Positions 5,277-58,691 of a stretch of 58,764 nt of DNA are shown here, piece after piece; the first letter of the stretch is position 1; each line of letters begins with the position of its first letter. Under the pieces are notes generated by a model that saw only the letters and a program-made list of their open reading frames with translations, did no database searches and was not told where the DNA came from. The position numbers and the translations under genes were made by a program. Origin of the DNA: an uncultured Clostridia bacterium (GTDB lineage: Bacteria > Bacillota > Clostridia > Christensenellales > Borkfalkiaceae); contig CANQQD010000008.1 of assembly GCA_947625865.1 (NCBI GenBank), positions 1 to 58,764 of the forward strand. Direction: 5' to 3'.

Positions 5277-5295
5277 AAAAATAAACGGTTACTAT

Positions 5296-5324
5296 ATTAT
5301 ATATAATATTTCGGGCAAATGCAA
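5296..5324 (-). promoter_or_regulatory. promoter of cysE-cysS-alaS
   Basis: Minus strand: TTGCAT (5319-5324), 17-nt spacer, TATAAT (5296-5301). The predicted leader before cysE is only about 13 nt. No T-box leader is present. Confidence 0.75.
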
Positions 5325-5425
5325 TTTATTTTGGGGTGTTTTTTCGCAGGGCTGTAACCAATTTTGAGGGGTTGAAAAATTTTCACACAAGTTTTTATTT
5401 TTTACACGAATGTCCCTCCATTTCC

Positions 5426-5454
5426 TTGACTTTTTAATGTTAAAAGTTTACAAT
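5426..5454 (+). promoter_or_regulatory. promoter of the DeoR-type regulator gene
   Basis: TTGACT (5426-5431), 17-nt spacer, TACAAT (5449-5454). Downstream, at about 5474-5491, the interrupted inverted repeat GTGTtagtttttcACAC could be an operator. A second TTTTCACAC copy lies upstream at about 5380-5388. Confidence 0.7.
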
Positions 5455-6304: not shown

Positions 6305-6322
6305 GTTACGGTGAATGATGTT

Positions 6323-6455
6323 ATACTCGCTGCGCTCGCGCCGATTGCTCGCTGTGCTCGCGTTAAATACTCGCTGCGCTCGTGGTAAATATTTGCTGTG
6401 CAAATGTTAAATATCGGCTCCGCCGATGTGAAATATTTTGCTCCGCAAAATGTTG
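6323..6455. repeat. array of 22-bp hairpin units
   Basis: Six consecutive units of 20-24 bp. Each is a small perfect hairpin around a GCTGCGC-type loop, with linker (g)TTAAATA. Arms differ between units but remain self-complementary: ATTTGCtgtGCAAAT, ATCGGCtccGCCGAT, ATTTTGCtccGCAAAAT. The last three units recur in the same order at 58576-58642. Confidence 0.85.
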
Positions 6456-6555
6456 TGGCGAAGATTATAAGAAGTGCCCCGAGCAGACCACGGGGGGATT
6501 ACCTCGCGCTCCGCGACTCGGAATGACACGGCTTAATGGGCGGTGTAATTATTTA

Positions 6556-10090: not shown

Positions 10091-10123
10091 TTAAGCCTCC
10101 CTGCCGCAAAATTGACCGCGGCG

Positions 10124-10852
10124 CTATTTTTCCGGTGTTTCCGGATAGTTTTCTTCCTTATAGCTTGCAAGATTTTCGTTCAAATTGCGGTTGGACTTGA
10201 AGGGGAAAATGAAGCTCGCTTTCTTTTTGTCGAGCGTTTCGGCTTTTTCCTTTACCGTTTCCTTTAATTTTTCGAAGTGCACTACTATATTATGGTGCTT
10301 TGCAAAGGAACGTATCTTTGCCGAAATGTTGAGCGAGTGCCCCAAATCCACGAGGAATATGCCGAGGAACAGACCGACGACAAAGGAAAACTCTATGTGC
10401 TCCACAAACCAGACGACCGCGCCTATTGCGTACGGGCGTATGACAAAATAGTAGAACGCCGAGACAACAAGCCAAAAAAAGGAAAACAGCGGGCAGATTA
10501 TGCCCTGTATGTTTCCCCAACGGTCGGAGTAGTCCCAGAGCTTTATTTTCATGCCCTTTATGAATATGAGACCCGCTATGTATTCTATCAGGGTCATCGT
10601 GACGCCCATTATGAGAATTATAAGCAGCGCGTCCAGCCACGCGTAGCCCGTGTATATGGGCAAAAACGATATTGCGAACAGCCCCGCCACCCCGAAACCG
10701 TATAAGGGGAGATACGGACCCGTGAGAAAGCCCGGGTTTATCCATTTTTTTGCGGTGAAAAAGCGGCGGAAGAGCACCTCGGTCACCCAGCCGAGCATGC
10801 TGCCCGTGATGAACAGGAACGCCGCCACGAGAAAAGCGGTTACAGGTTGCAT
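10124..10852 (-). CDS. CmpB-type membrane protein (putative ABC-transporter permease family)
   Basis: 242-residue polytopic membrane protein with about six hydrophobic segments. The N-terminal half matches the family annotated as putative ABC-transporter type IV (CmpB-like): GSMLGWVTEVLFRRFF, WINPGFLTGPYLPLYGFG, LIEYIAGLIF, LWDYSDRWGNIQGIICPLFS. The C terminus is a charged cytoplasmic tail. The biochemical role of the family is not established. It sits between gltX (22 nt upstream) and the ABC transporter (33 nt downstream) on the same strand. Confidence 0.8.
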   Translation of the reverse strand: MQPVTAFLVAAFLFITGSMLGWVTEVLFRRFFTAKKWINPGFLTGPYLPLYGFGVAGLFAISFLPIYTGYAWLDALLIILIMGVTMTLIEYIAGLIFIKGMKIKLWDYSDRWGNIQGIICPLFSFFWLVVSAFYYFVIRPYAIGAVVWFVEHIEFSFVVGLFLGIFLVDLGHSLNISAKIRSFAKHHNIVVHFEKLKETVKEKAETLDKKKASFIFPFKSNRNLNENLASYKEENYPETPEK

Positions 10853-18144: not shown

Positions 18145-18511
18145 GGGCTTCGGTACGACGGGACACAAGTCCCTCCGTATATCCACCAAGCGGGCGCGGC
18201 AGAGATGCAAGCAAGACAAGGAAACGGCGGAATGTGGACGAGTAAGCCCTGCGGGCTTCGGTACGACGGGACTCAAGTCCCTTCCTGTATTCCACCACGT
18301 CGCCCCGCCGCAGAGATGCAAGCAAGACAAGGAAACGGCGGAATGTGGACGAGTAAGCCCTGCGGGCTTCGGTACGACGGGACTCAAGTCCCTTCCTGTA
18401 TTCCACCACGTCGCCCCGCCGCAGAGATGCAAGCAAGACAAGGAAACGGCGGAATGTGGACGAGTAAGCCCTGCGGGCTTCGGTACGACGGGACACAAGT
18501 CCCTCCGTATA
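18145..18511 (-). repeat. tandem 111-bp array behind tmRNA
   Basis: Repeat heads GGGCTTCGGTACGACGGGAC fall at 18145, 18253, 18364 and 18475 (intervals 108, 111, 111). The two middle units are essentially identical, and the outer two share a variant segment (CCTCCGTATATCCACCAAGC). Read on the minus strand (the tmRNA sense) the units contain CTTGTCTTGCTTGC, GGATATACGG and an AAGCCC/GGGCTT hairpin, matching parts of the post-stop module. Open on both strands because 111 is divisible by 3, but not credible as protein. Confidence 0.85.
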
Positions 18512-18558
18512 TCCACCAAGCGGGCGCGGCACAAAAAGTGCCGCGCCCGCTTGGTGGA
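18512..18558 (-). terminator. long palindrome at the tmRNA 3' end
   Basis: Perfect 21-bp arms (18512-18532 and 18538-18558) with a 5-nt A/T loop. The right arm includes the mature tmRNA 3' end UCCACCA, and the left arm is its mirror image. The T run lies in the loop and not after the stem on the tmRNA strand, so action as a normal terminator is uncertain. Confidence 0.75.
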
Positions 18559-18939
18559 CGAGTCGGGACTTGCACCCGAGTCTTACGAGGTTCGAAAAAG
18601 GGTTCTACATACTTAGTCTTTCATTAAGCTTGGCTTCCGCACCCGAAAGACAGGGTGAATGAAGCGCATGCCGTTTTAATTAAACCGCAAAGCGCTCACG
18701 GCAGAAAACGCTTTGGGCGCTCCGTTTAAATGACGCCCCGTAACGCCAACGGAATACGTTACGGAACGGACCGCTTATACTTAAGCGGCGAGGGCGCAGC
18801 CTGCCACGCGAGCAGCGGGGAAAGCTACAACCTTTTCAGATTTGGTATCTGCGTTTAAATTTAATTTCCGTTTTTACAAAGCCGTGCCTTTGGTATGCTT
18901 TTCTTCCTCTCCTCCCGCAATCGAATCTGAAACTCGCCC
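18552..18939 (-). ncRNA. ssrA: transfer-messenger RNA (tmRNA)
   Basis: 388 nt. The 5' GGGCGAG pairs with the 3' CUCGUCC (7 bp, one G-U), followed by ACCA. Near the 3' end the conserved GACTAAGTATGTAGA and the T-arm CGGG-TGCAAGT-CCCG are present. The tag reading frame resumes at GCA and runs 23 codons, starting ADTKSEKVV and ending GCALAA before TAA. The ALAA end is the standard degradation signal read by ClpXP. The stop codon lies in a CCGCTTAA/TAAGCGG hairpin, as in helix 5. Rescues stalled ribosomes with SmpB, which is not in this window. The tag is longer than the common 9-15 residues. Confidence 0.96.
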
Positions 18940-27255: not shown

Positions 27256-27660
27256 ATAAAATAATTCCTTATGTTCACAAAATTCTCGCGACATTGCGGA
27301 AGCTGTAATCACACTCCCCTCAGTCTCGCTTTGCTCGACAGCTCCCCCCAGAGGAAGGAGCCAAGGCTGGGGTGCGCTGCTCGACAGCTGTCTCACACGG
27401 CGTAAGGACAACGCCGTGTTCGGGCACCGTTCGCGCGGCAAAACAGCGCACCGTGCTGTTTTGAGAATTCCGCGCTCGTCCTCGCAAGCGAAAGGCGCCA
27501 AGGTGGTTGGGAGCCGCCCGCTTTTCCTTGCCCTCTTCCGTCGCCGACGGGGGAGGGTGTCACGAAGTGACGGGTGGGAGAGGTGGTTTGCTTTTTATTA
27601 CCCCCTCCCATCACCCGCTGCGCGGGAGCTTCCCCCCCCCATTGGGGGAAGAAGCCACGG
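27256..27660. repeat. composite repeat block between clpP and clpX
   Basis: No gene. It holds a CTCGCTTTGCTCGACAGCTC unit (27326-27346), the ACACGG hairpin in inverted orientation (27391-27423), a 54-bp two-hairpin module in reverse orientation (27527-27580), and the CCCGCTGCGCGGG and CTTCCCCC/GGGGGAAG hairpins (27607-27655). Likely transcribed as an intercistronic spacer if the operon is still read through. Confidence 0.75.
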
Positions 27661-27837
27661 GCAACTGCTCTTACGAAGTCAACAAGCGGTTAGAAGCGAG
27701 CAGAGCAAGGAAAGCGAGTACCGTCTGCAGGGAGTGTACAAAAGACGTACACGTCGCACCGAAGGCGTTTGCCTTACCAAAGCGGCACGGAGCTTGACAC
27801 AGCTATGCGACGCTTATAATCCGCTTGCCGCGGGAGC
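27661..27837 (-). repeat. post-stop module behind clpP
   Basis: Begins GCTCCCGCGGCAAGCGG on the minus strand at the base following the clpP TAG (27840-27838). The closing stem pairs 27821-27827 with 27683-27689 (CAAGCGG/CCGCTTG). The internal hairpin GTGTAC/GTACAC (27747-27752 with 27734-27739) is followed by CTCC. A further AAGGC/GCCTT hairpin and the tail GACTTCGTAAGAGC are present. The closest relative is the copy at 35218-35381. Confidence 0.85.
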
Positions 27838-28452
27838 CTATCTTTTATAGAATACGCGGTCGATAAGCCCATACTCCAACGCCTCCTGCGCGGACAGATA
27901 ATTGTCGCGGTCGGTGTCGCGCTCGATGACCTCCAGGGGCTTTCCGCTGTTTTGCGAAAGTATTGTATTTAACTTCTGTCTCGTTTTAAGTATGTGATCC
28001 GCGGCGATCTTTATGTCGCTCGCCTGTCCCTGTGCGCCGCCCAGCGGCTGGTGGATCATAATTTCGCTGTTGGGAAGGGCGAAGCGTTTGCCCTTCTGCC
28101 CGCTCGACAAAAGGAACGCGCCCATGCTCGCCGCCATGCCTATACATATCGTGGATACGTCGCACTTGATATAGTTCATGGTGTCGTAGATGGCAAGCCC
28201 CGCCGATACGGAGCCGCCCGGGCTGTTGATGTAGAGGGAAATATCCTTGGAGGGATCCTTTGCCTCAAGATATATGAGCTGGGCTACGACCGTGTTCGCA
28301 ACGGCGTCGTCTATCTCGCCCGTGAGAAATATTATTCTGTCCTCCAGAAGTCTGGAATAAATGTCGTACGAACGCTCGCCGCGCGAGGTCTGTTCGACTA
28401 TATAGGGCACCAAAGCGCCTTTTACGTCCTGCATATTTATCTCCTTGATCAC
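27838..28452 (-). CDS. clpP: ATP-dependent Clp protease proteolytic subunit
   Basis: 204 residues. Serine peptidase that assembles as a tetradecamer with ClpX or ClpC. The catalytic Ser is in [11 protein letters not shown], His in MIHQPLGG, and Asp in the [11 protein letters not shown] segment. N-terminal [23 protein letters not shown] matches the family. The start overlaps the tig stop as ATGA. The C terminus ends normally (LIDRVFYKR), and the stop codon directly abuts a post-stop module. Confidence 0.98.
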
Positions 28453-34968: not shown

Positions 34969-35007
34969 CGGTTTAATGGGCGAAGCAATTATTTAAAAAC
35001 TAAATTA

Positions 35008-35217
35008 CCGCTTGAAAGGAACAATCTCCTATCAAGCGGTTTTGCTTTTAAGATACTCGGATCAAACGTCACGTTTGCCGCTTGATTGGAGTAAACACCT
35101 GTCAAGCGGCTTTGCTTTTAAGATACTCGGATCAAACGTCACGTTTGCCGCTTGATTGGAGTAAACACCTGTCAAGCGGTTTTGCTTTTAAGATTCTCGG
35201 ATCAAACGTCACGTTTG
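35008..35217 (+). repeat. three tandem 70-bp units
   Basis: Units at 35008-35077, 35078-35147 and 35148-35217. Each has a CCGCTTGA/TCAAGCGG stem followed by TTTTGCTTTTA (terminator-like, plus strand) and a second palindrome CAAACGTcACGTTTG. Units 2 and 3 differ at two positions. Unit 1 has a different loop (AAGGAACAATCTCCTA) that itself pairs. Confidence 0.9.
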
Positions 35218-41302: not shown

Positions 41303-41383
41303 TTTTACACAAAATCCTTTTCGTTCCAGAGGGTAACTTCGTCCGTCTCCAGCGTCGGCTTCATAAGAATTATCCGCTGGTTC
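41303..41383 (-). pseudogene. duplicated 3' end of nrdG (81 bp)
   Basis: Perfect 81-bp copy of 41845-41925, which encodes the last 26 residues and stop of NrdG (ending LWNEKDFV). It has no start or remaining gene. The two copies bracket the GIY-YIG element as direct repeats. Confidence 0.92.
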
Positions 41384-41815: not shown

Positions 41816-41846
41816 GAAGGAAGGGTACTGTGACAGGCGGTACATT

Positions 41847-42380
41847 TTACACAAAATCCTTTTCGTTCCAGAGGGTAACTTCGTCCGTCTCCAGCGTCGG
41901 CTTCATAAGAATTATCCGCTGGTTCGCCGAGCCGCGGAAGAGTAAATTCAGATCCTTAAGGGCTTCCACAAATCTGCCGTCCACCAGCACGTCGAGAGTG
42001 TGCAGAATACGCATATTCGTCTCTAAATTCCCCAGTTTGCCCGTCAAAATGTCCCGCTCGAGGTCGTAGCCTGTGAACGACCAGAGCGATTTCTGCGGAT
42101 ACGCGTTGCGCAACCGTTCCATAAACGGGGCGAGACGCTCCGCATTTTCGGGCTCGAACGGGTCGCCGCCGAGGAGCGTAAAGCCTTTTATGTAGTCGGG
42201 CTCCATTGACTTTATTATTTTATCCTCCACCTCTTCGGTGAAGGGTTCGCCGTAGCCGAAGTCCCACGTTTCGGGGTTGAAGCAGTTTTTACAGTGGTTG
42301 CGGCAGCCGCTTACGTACAGCGACGTGCGCACCCCCGGCCCGTTGGATATATCGAAATATTTTATCTTTGCATAGTTCAT
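41847..42380 (-). CDS. nrdG: anaerobic ribonucleotide reductase activating protein
   Basis: 177 residues. Radical-SAM activase that installs the glycyl radical on NrdD. The cluster motif CRNHCKNC (CX3CX2C) follows NGPGVRTSLYVSG, and LLGGDPFEPEN is the SAM-binding GGE-type region. Its last 26 codons are duplicated at 41303. It lies downstream of nrdD, 397 bp away, with a repeat block in between. Confidence 0.95.
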   Translation of the reverse strand: MNYAKIKYFDISNGPGVRTSLYVSGCRNHCKNCFNPETWDFGYGEPFTEEVEDKIIKSMEPDYIKGFTLLGGDPFEPENAERLAPFMERLRNAYPQKSLWSFTGYDLERDILTGKLGNLETNMRILHTLDVLVDGRFVEALKDLNLLFRGSANQRIILMKPTLETDEVTLWNEKDFV

Positions 42381-48407: not shown

Positions 48408-49282
48408 AGGGACTGATATTAAACAACGCTTACTACGAAACGCCCTCCACGAGCTATCAAGGAGAGCGGCTTGCCGCCGAGCTTAAAAAGCTCGGCGTTT
48501 ATTGCGACATAAGGAAAAACGACTTTTTCGGGGCGGAGATTTCGGACGGAAACCTGAAAAACGTTGCAATGGGGTACGATTTTTGCATTTATCTCGACAA
48601 GGACAAGTATGTGAGCTACGCCCTCGAGAGGTGCGGCGTGCGGCTCTTCAACCGCCACGCGGCAATTGAGCTGTGCGACGACAAGGCCCTCACCTTCGTG
48701 CACCTTGCGGGGAACGGCATACCCATGCCCGAAACGCTTCCGGGGCTGTTATGCTACGACCCCACCGCCGCCGTTTTGCCCCAAACGTATGAAGTTTTGG
48801 AGCAAAAATTGGGCTATCCGATGGTCGTAAAGCAGTGCTTCGGGTCGCTCGGAAAGTTCGTGTACAAAATAGACGGCCGCGAGGAACTGGAAAGGAAGTG
48901 CGAGGAGCTCAAATGCACCCCGCACCTCTTCCAAAAATTTATTGCAAAAAGCGCGGGCAGGGATATCCGCGTTATAGTGATAGGCGGGAAAGCCGTCGCG
49001 GCTATGGAGAGAAGTTCTAAAACCGACTTCCGCTCAAACATTGAACTCGGCGGGGTCGGCACGCCCAAAGAAATAGACGAAAAACTCAAAACACTCTGCG
49101 AAAAGGCGGCAGATCTGCTCGGGCTCGACTACTGCGGGATAGATATTTTGTACGGCGACGGCGGTTATCTTTTATGCGAGGTAAACTCCAACGCCTTTTT
49201 CGGCGGAATGGAGCGAGTGACGGGGATAAACGTCGCCCGCCTCTACGCCGAACATATAATAGCTACCGTGCGGCGTGTATAA
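48404..49282 (+). CDS. RimK-like ATP-grasp ligase
   Basis: 292 residues. ATP-grasp fold: GYPMVVKQCFGSLGKFVYKI (lysine of the ATP site), FQKFIAKSAGRDIRVIVIGGKAVAAMERSS, and CGIDILYGDGGYLLCEVNSNAFFGGME (metal-binding Asp, Glu, Asn). RimK relatives add amino acids, often glutamate, to proteins or small molecules by acyl-phosphate chemistry. The acceptor here is unknown. The last gene of the operon. Its TAA coincides with the TAA at the start of a post-stop module. Confidence 0.88.
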   Translation: MKGLILNNAYYETPSTSYQGERLAAELKKLGVYCDIRKNDFFGAEISDGNLKNVAMGYDFCIYLDKDKYVSYALERCGVRLFNRHAAIELCDDKALTFVHLAGNGIPMPETLPGLLCYDPTAAVLPQTYEVLEQKLGYPMVVKQCFGSLGKFVYKIDGREELERKCEELKCTPHLFQKFIAKSAGRDIRVIVIGGKAVAAMERSSKTDFRSNIELGGVGTPKEIDEKLKTLCEKAADLLGLDYCGIDILYGDGGYLLCEVNSNAFFGGMERVTGINVARLYAEHIIATVRRV

Positions 49283-49407
49283 ACTTCGTTCTGCTGTGTT
49301 GCGCTGCGGCAACTTTCAGTCATTTACGTTTAAGTAAACTCCTTCAAGTTTTCCTCGCGCGCCTTGCATAACTCGCTTCTGACCGCTTGTAGACTCCGTA
49401 ATTGCAC
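49278..49407 (+). repeat. post-stop module at the ATP-grasp gene end
   Basis: Plus-strand copy. TGTATAAACTTCG aligns with the module's GTGATAAACTTCG, so the gene's stop lies in module sequence. CTGTGTTGCGCT is followed by a TTTAC/GTAAA hairpin (49323-49327 with 49334-49338) and CTCC, as in the copy at 7113-7261. It ends CCGCTTGTAGACTCCGTAATTGC. The first hairpin strand is missing or supplied by coding sequence. Confidence 0.75.
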
Positions 49408-49740: not shown

Positions 49741-49850
49741 TAACCAATCCACAGCGACTGGCGCGCGCCTTGCATAACTCGCTTCTACCCACCGCAGGAC
49801 TTCGTAATTGCAGAAAACTCCGTCATTCCAATCACATAAATTTTTCAATA

Positions 49851-58537: not shown

Positions 58538-58642
58538 TCTCGCTTCGCTCGCGTTAAATATGCTGCGCATTTTAAATATTTGCTGCGCAAATGTTAAATA
58601 TCGGCTGCGCCGATGTGAAATATTTTGCTCCGCAAAATGTTG
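58538..58642. repeat. array of 22-bp hairpin units
   Basis: Five units. The last three (ATTTGC..GCAAAT, ATCGGC..GCCGAT, ATTTTGC..GCAAAAT, 58576-58642) repeat those at 6389-6455 in the same order. One short unit (TATGCtgcGCATT) is unique to this copy. Confidence 0.85.
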
Positions 58643-58691
58643 TGGTGGAGATTATGAGAAGTGGTTTTTCCCATACCCTCCACTCCCCTGT

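Follow-up and report, generated by a model that had tools for sequence, protein, structure and literature searches.

Why should genes as unrelated as clpP, nrdD and an ABC transporter gene be followed, from the very base behind their stop codons, by copies of the same repeat? The question is raised by a stretch of 58,764 nucleotides from an uncultured Clostridia bacterium (contig CANQQD010000008.1), the whole of which is called the window here. An earlier, sequence-only reading had noticed that sequence starting with GCTCCCGC begins right after these three stops on the minus strand, that an RND gene and an ATP-grasp gene end inside the repeat, that rpsI carries one behind its terminator and that all six lie in sense orientation to the gene. 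All six cases were recovered in our analysis, with the gene names checked against NCBIfam (the RND gene encodes an RND-family transporter and the ATP-grasp gene a RimK-type protein), and the repeats proved to belong to imperfect, rod-like hairpins, hereafter rods. The relevant features of the window are the following (scores in bits refer to the covariance model R1 described below):

27665-27837, minus strand: rod behind clpP, starting 0 nt after the stop (27838); 147.8 bits
42631-42777, minus strand: rod behind nrdD, starting 0 nt after the stop (42778); 141.4 bits
42594-42623, minus strand: tail-only unit behind the nrdD rod, consisting of the right lower arm and ACTTCGTAA
7112-7261, minus strand: rod behind the ABC transporter gene, starting 0 nt after the stop (7262); 139.4 bits
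35209-35381, minus strand: rod at the RND gene, its head encoding the last residues and the stop (24 nt inside); 136.5 bits
90-236, minus strand: rod directly behind the rpsI terminator palindrome; 146.4 bits
237-307, minus strand: rpsI terminator with outer 17-nt arms at 291-307 and 237-253; the rod begins at its foot
49262-49407, plus strand: rod at the ATP-grasp gene, supplying its stop (21 nt inside), of the arm-swapped type GTTCTGC/GCATAAC; 101.3 bits
49644-49673, plus strand: tail-only unit
49778-49807, plus strand: tail-only unit
18195-18527, minus strand: three 111-nt tandem repeats behind the tmRNA gene, each with the rod right-arm sequence CCTTGTCTTGCTTGCATCTCTGC; a fragment with no R1 match

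Other repeats lie close by. Three 70-nt tandem repeats behind the RND rod (35005-35217) each hold a CAAGCGG-type inverted repeat resembling a rod lower stem, and an exact 81-bp duplication occupies 41303-41383 and 41845-41925, one copy overlapping the 3′ end of nrdG. At 6320-6480 and 58573-58663 lie further intergenic repeat families, namely 22-nt tandem GCTCGC hairpins, GTCATTCTGAG and CTTGCCCTCTTCCG repeats, which come after the rods in the rod-bearing spacers read.

The rod module is about 150 nt long (approximately 145-170 nt), is repeated across the genome and folds into a single long rod. Its internal mismatches are conserved; an inner hairpin may or may not be present, and many copies carry GTAC...GTAC at the tip. 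All 24 aligned copies fall into one family, in which arm variation is matched on both sides at 14 of 25 consensus pairs (RNAalifold). When the structure was held fixed, 98.5% of 599 cells were paired, while slid versions of it reached 24-47%; two-sided cells numbered 83 against a shuffle mean of 23.8, and none of 500 shuffles came as high on these measures or on the covariation score. On one covariation measure, further pair types were not above shuffles (154 of 500 as high). The outer arms pair with each other even as their sequence varies by genome and locus: lower stems are alike within one genome and different between genomes or loci, arm types swap out as pairs, one type having both arms swapped, and a few copies have unmatched arms. 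The GCTCCCGC octamer is itself enriched in the window (15 occurrences against 3.6 expected; none of 100 shuffles reaches 15), yet it is not the element, and in distant relatives it is the paired lower stem rather than GCTCCCGC that abuts the stop. An Rfam search of the window at gathering scores returned the tmRNA as its sole match, and a search of 27640-27860 gave no match at E ≤ 1.

The window's own genome (G000) is 94% complete, and G013 and G016 are its sister genomes. A BLAST search with a 198-base query found 47 matches in G000, and the covariance model R1 found 93 hits at E ≤ 0.1, of which 55 score at least 80 bits; the other genomes of the genus have between 0 and 71 R1 hits each. At E ≤ 0.001, hits occur in 24 of 41 genomes, namely 22 of the 25 of the genus (including G000) and two of 16 from other families of the order. 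A scan of GTDB with a right-arm pattern, which is blind to upstream context, gave at least 118 matching stretches, and the 80 that were analysed hold 90 R1 hits at E ≤ 0.001. Among the matches listed, Clostridia or Clostridiales MAGs predominate by label, Candidatus Coproplasma and Ca. Ornithoclostridium among them, and a few records are labelled otherwise (Oscillospiraceae, Bacillota, Clostridiaceae, Fibrobacter, Alphaproteobacteria, Diapherotrites); the Diapherotrites record matches the pattern without an R1 hit at E ≤ 0.001. The rod family is present in many uncultured gut Clostridia. Four viral contigs also carry the right-arm pattern and one of them has clear rods, two in number (5286-5434 and 10107-10245 of IMGVR_UViG_3300009826_001444, our locus L391), in DNA that could be of phage or of host.

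How consistently rods mark gene ends was assessed with 119 strong copies, around which genes were called with a codon model trained on the window. For G000, 38 of the 93 hits fell below 80 bits and were left out, and one (C11:47760) did not map to a region; the sisters contributed 47 of 71 hits in G013 and 18 of 25 in G016. Where an upstream gene was called, the rod is sense to it in 112 of 117 copies. No fewer than 34 of the 119 begin 0 or 1 nt behind the stop, as against 0.45% of oriented intergenic positions in the window (a null drawn from its 9,662 intergenic bases); 47 begin between −1 and +1 (27 at exactly 0, 13 at −1 and 7 at +1), and the class from −5 to 10 comprises 57, the window null being 2.3% for 0 to 10. 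In a further 14 copies, the rod head supplies the stop codon, 18-24 nt inside. Another 24 lie behind a terminator whose T-run ends no more than 8 nt away; the T-run touches the rod in 14 of these, distributed as 12 of 15 in G013, two of eight in G000 and none of one in G016. The remainder are six copies behind another copy's tail, five antisense to the upstream gene, two without a gene in the region and 11 others, nine of which by eye follow what resemble terminator hairpins, other copies' tails or rpmJ, leaving two; rpmJ had been overlooked by the gene caller at two copies and its identity was then confirmed. In terms of neighbourhood, tandem gene pairs hold 68 sense copies and one antisense, 26 copies lie between convergent and three between divergent genes, 18 are sense with no downstream gene seen and three are incomplete. 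The ratio of 68 to 1 is probably higher than leading-strand gene bias would give.

The terminators in front of rods deserve a remark of their own. At five loci (L051, L149, L168, L192 and L198), they share a TTCACAAAAA-like lead and a GACATTCGxCGATGTC-like stem, and they look as if they, too, were a dispersed module.

The GTDB sample agrees with the picture from the three genomes. Position and pairing were scored for 74 of the 90 hits, those left out being G013 records or near copies and truncated or low hits; nine of the 74 had no called upstream gene, leaving 65. Here, 61 of 65 are sense, compared with 51% for random intergenic positions at the same loci, and the core lies within 40 nt of a same-strand stop in 44 of 65, compared with 8.9%. 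Mostly, the core is found 14-34 nt behind the stop; three distances above 1,000 nt probably reflect missed genes, because the caller was trained on another genome. The sequence-only reading had held that such exact junctions could not be chance, and that a broad spread of distances and orientations across copies would turn them into coincidence or a selection of examples. The 119-copy classes, the GTDB sample and the positional null bear out the former and rule out the latter. Its 0-nt junction is indeed the commonest class, but not the sole one, given the 24 copies behind terminators and the six behind other copies.

Sense orientation is less of a hallmark than it might seem. Relative to the upstream gene, some other repeats in the rod-bearing loci are mostly sense as well (CTTGGC family 53 of 56, CTTGCCCTCTTCCG 21 of 39, GTCATTyyGAG 56 of 75, CGTGG family 19 of 22 and GCTCCCGCAATTT 10 of 12, next to 69 of 70 for the rod core), which makes sense orientation less distinctive of rods. 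It is nearness to the stop that distinguishes them: 46 of 69 sense rod cores lie within 30 nt of a stop, compared with one of 159 sense copies of the five other repeats, a weak control in that the loci were chosen for holding a rod.

If rods are placed at gene ends, orthologous sites should reveal when. In a quick, single-protein NrdD tree of 25 genomes, the nrdD site is occupied in six (G000, G013 and G016; G018; G015 and G002), and three changes of presence are needed, all three forced by the starred branches. Three gains are the simplest reading, since fewer gains would require losses; G017, which is absent from the tree, has no hit at nrdD either. Behind clpP, a rod is found in four of 16 genomes (G000, G013, G008 and G009), again with three changes on the NrdD tree. 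The nrdD and clpP rods begin at the stop or within a few bases, and no rod is present at nrdD in 19 of 25 genomes or at clpP in 12 of 16, the spacers read there being unrelated to rods. Even neighbours differ: G000, G013 and G016 differ in the rods and mosaics that lie between the nrdD stop and a common anchor, each stretch beginning with a different rod type, and in G016 a head-only remnant was seen by eye behind clpP, where R1 gives no hit. That presence has changed several times, in separate events, at one and the same post-stop site supports the view that rods are placed at gene ends again and again.

The closest approach to an empty site is the clpP-clpX spacer of G004, in which the stop is followed by 26 nt and the likely clpX start, with no rod. 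Its sister G008 has a rod and other repeats between the two genes, and a similar ribosome-binding region before clpX. Judged by eye, this pair would put the insertion approximately 10 nt or less from the stop. Precise empty sites with target duplications, which the sequence-only reading had named as support for insertion, were not found: the G004/G008 pair, the best available, is approximate, and no target duplication was seen by eye at rods.

Some gene ends appear to have been rewritten. The RND gene of G016 has no rod and a longer C-terminus, whereas G000 and G013 have rods at different codons and both lack the G016 tail; the gene downstream also differs between G016 and G000, so rearrangement may be part of this history and either state could be the older. 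At queA, five genomes (L146, L302, L316, L313 and L127; NCBIfam-confirmed) have a rod at the same place, in which the coding end forms the left lower arm and the right arm is, by eye, complementary to each genome's own codons; this looks like long maintenance. Rods also occur at rpmJ in at least three genomes. Hairpins other than rods behave similarly in the window: the perfect 17-nt outer arms of the rpsI terminator repeat the last codons and stop of rpsI, and the terminator palindrome behind the tmRNA gene (18552-18939, minus strand; region 18195-18620) repeats the gene's 3′ end including CCACCA. Thus, stop codons and last residues can come from a repeat, and the right arms of hairpins can match coding DNA.

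Are the arms kept matched as RNA or as DNA? Pair counts, whose scoring treats G-U and A-C alike, gave 109 G-U, 58 A-C and 5,093 Watson-Crick pairs for the 119 copies of the three genomes and 40, 44 and 3,215, respectively, for the 74 GTDB copies. Requiring two flanking pairs left small and inconsistent numbers (25 G-U and 8 A-C in the own set; 10 and 20 in GTDB), and requiring three left small counts that lean toward A-C (0 and 6; 2 and 13). As a control, 11 tRNAs from the analysed loci had 17 G-U, no A-C and 215 Watson-Crick pairs, a contrast biased by the tRNA finder, which itself favours G-U. On the wobble counts, selection on a sense RNA is not clearly indicated. We infer that the arms at queA, rpsI and the tmRNA gene are best explained by one arm being copied from the other in the DNA, much as in template switching, which is reported to create and maintain RNA hairpins (PMC8794818).

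The search for a mover returned little. Y1_Tnp (PF01797) was found neither in the 94% complete G000 nor in G013, with seven of 25 genomes having one, and RVT_1 (PF00078) was not found in G000, again with seven of 25 having one, G013 included. This speaks against a RAYT or a reverse transcriptase of these domains as the present mover in G000. Fixed rod termini across genera were not found, and a lower stem that differs by genome or locus is unusual for a transposon end. Plain insertion at TA targets was also considered, as stops contain TA and some relatives have, by eye, TA at both feet of the rod; 12 of the 15 post-terminator copies in G013 start at the T-run, and TA-target insertion therefore does not cover the data.

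A precise gene-end position together with near-constant sense orientation means that something places the rod there or keeps it there. Building on what is directly observed, namely structure, copy number, position, orientation and patchy presence on the tree, we give an even chance to the reading that the rod is a REP/MITE-like palindrome, dispersed and non-coding, that unrelated genes have acquired at their 3′ ends time and again, in independent events. New copies would land with the head toward the gene, either right at the stop codon or on the far side of an intrinsic terminator, or else a few codons short of the stop, in which case the rod head would supply it. The arms would be kept matched mainly at the DNA level, either because one arm is copied from the other, as in template switching, or because the hairpin is recognised as single-stranded DNA, and the position would reflect insertion directed to gene 3′ ends and made sharper by selection against copies lying elsewhere. 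Some factor would have to move the rod, and the absence from G000 of Y1_Tnp and RVT_1, the domains searched for, is the main gap in reading rods as mobile. As a side effect, each copy would set a stable hairpin next to the ribosome as it terminates, and between the genes of an operon; from there it could influence the mRNA in the manner of E. coli REPs. The sequence-only reading had proposed a mobile element with a stop codon or transcript 3′ end as its target, or else a 3′-UTR element copied between genes. Repeated placement at gene ends is upheld by the present data, but the stop codon itself is not what is recognised, because 24 of 119 copies sit behind a terminator, 14 begin in the last codons and a right-arm fragment lies behind the tmRNA gene.

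Ranking next is a functional 3′-UTR hairpin, spread by recombination and kept by selection, that folds from the transcript behind the stop and controls ribosome release, RNA decay or operon read-through. This account is strong on position and orientation: copies are almost all sense, their core mostly lies 14-34 nt past the stop, close to where a terminating ribosome would have its edge, and several sit between close co-oriented genes. The covariation of the arms, the rods found at queA (five genomes) and rpmJ (at least three), and the precedent of E. coli REPs within 15 nt of stops (PMC12306157) also speak for it. We nevertheless consider it a secondary possibility, given that G-U pairs show no clear excess over A-C, that the 24 copies behind a terminator fall outside most of the transcript and that occupancy of orthologues is patchy (nrdD 6/25, clpP 4/16). 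That there is no real mobility at all seems unlikely. Gene-end hairpins would then be ancestral in compact genomes, with homologous recombination and gene conversion homogenising their sequence within a genome; this would accommodate the different arm types at orthologous sites of sisters, the resemblance of lower stems within a genome and an rpsI terminator that likewise reaches into the gene end, but it has to contend with the 19 of 25 nrdD and 12 of 16 clpP sites without a rod and with unrelated spacers in those read.

A different kind of account looks to the transcript. It is rather improbable, in our judgement, that the element targets the gene 3′ end as a functional unit and owes its fixed orientation to a process that reads transcripts—such as reverse transcription joining the rod to mRNA 3′ ends—so that the rod replaces the native end and supplies the stop. 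A specific version appears very unlikely: a reverse transcriptase would run off the 5′ end of rod RNA onto an mRNA 3′ end, either the U-tract of a terminator or an end left by decay at the stop codon or ahead of it, and recombination would then bring the chimeric cDNA into the chromosomal gene. Copying coupled to transcript ends would unite the junctions at stops, T-runs and last codons, and it would yield sense orientation and loss of the native tail. The sense orientation and head-to-tail chains of rods fit this version, as do the T-run contacts in 12 of 15 post-terminator cases of G013, the RND junctions, which fall within the coding end and come without the G016 tail, and the rod fragment behind an RNA gene, the tmRNA. 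Against it stand the absence of an RVT_1 protein from G000, the T-run contacts in just two of eight G000 cases and the nrdD-nrdG anchor that is kept behind the mosaics, which means that downstream DNA is not always lost.

Compared with known systems, rods resemble REPs and BIMEs in being extragenic, non-coding palindromes at high copy number (93 R1 hits in G000), but REPs are several times shorter and are accompanied by RAYT (Y1 tyrosine) transposases, whereas Y1_Tnp is absent from G000. REPs alternate in orientation within BIMEs (PMC2817692), unlike rods, which are nearly fixed in sense and have conserved internal loops; the GT(A/G)G head given for REPs in PMC2817692 was not seen by eye at the rod foot, rod heads being mostly GCT(C/G/A)CCG or locus-specific. 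Proximity to stops itself has a published precedent in E. coli, where an earlier study placed 260 of 496 REPs near enough to a stop to act on translation and a newer one places 446 of 4,072 within 15 nt (PMC12306157). MITEAba12 is non-coding, 111-114 bp long (rods, ~145-170) and able to end a gene by supplying a stop, but it has no orientation preference and has 9-bp integration sites (PMC6382973), while rods are nearly all sense and no target duplication was found. Group IIC introns, which target intrinsic terminators and attC motifs (PMC4424553), share with rods the aim at gene 3′ ends; rods have no Rfam match and occur more often at stops than behind terminators. Accordingly, the parts have precedents, in E. 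coli REPs near stops (PMC12306157) and group IIC introns at terminators (PMC4424553). No precedent for fixed polarity, junction precision and breadth taken together was met in the open-access literature searched, which likewise held no description of the rod family, although this is not proof of its absence in print.

Two orthologous sites that each changed state at least three times, in a family with strict polarity and base-level gene-end position across many Clostridia genomes, make rod sites a natural experiment on what renders a stop codon or terminator a target. If the position is aimed, a targeting mechanism awaits discovery; if it is selected, gut Clostridia possess a widespread, unrecognised 3′-end device. 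Repeats of the REP, MITE and BOX-like kinds in bacteria are as a rule regarded as intergenic debris. The pneumococcal BOX and RUP elements are like rods in being modular intergenic repeats, and we know of no stop-codon junction in them; group IIC introns are far longer than rods. Integron attC sites—covarying imperfect palindromes with conserved mismatches that lie in sense behind the stop of each cassette gene—resemble rods in these respects; rods, for their part, are scattered behind chromosomal genes such as clpP, nrdD, rpsI and queA.
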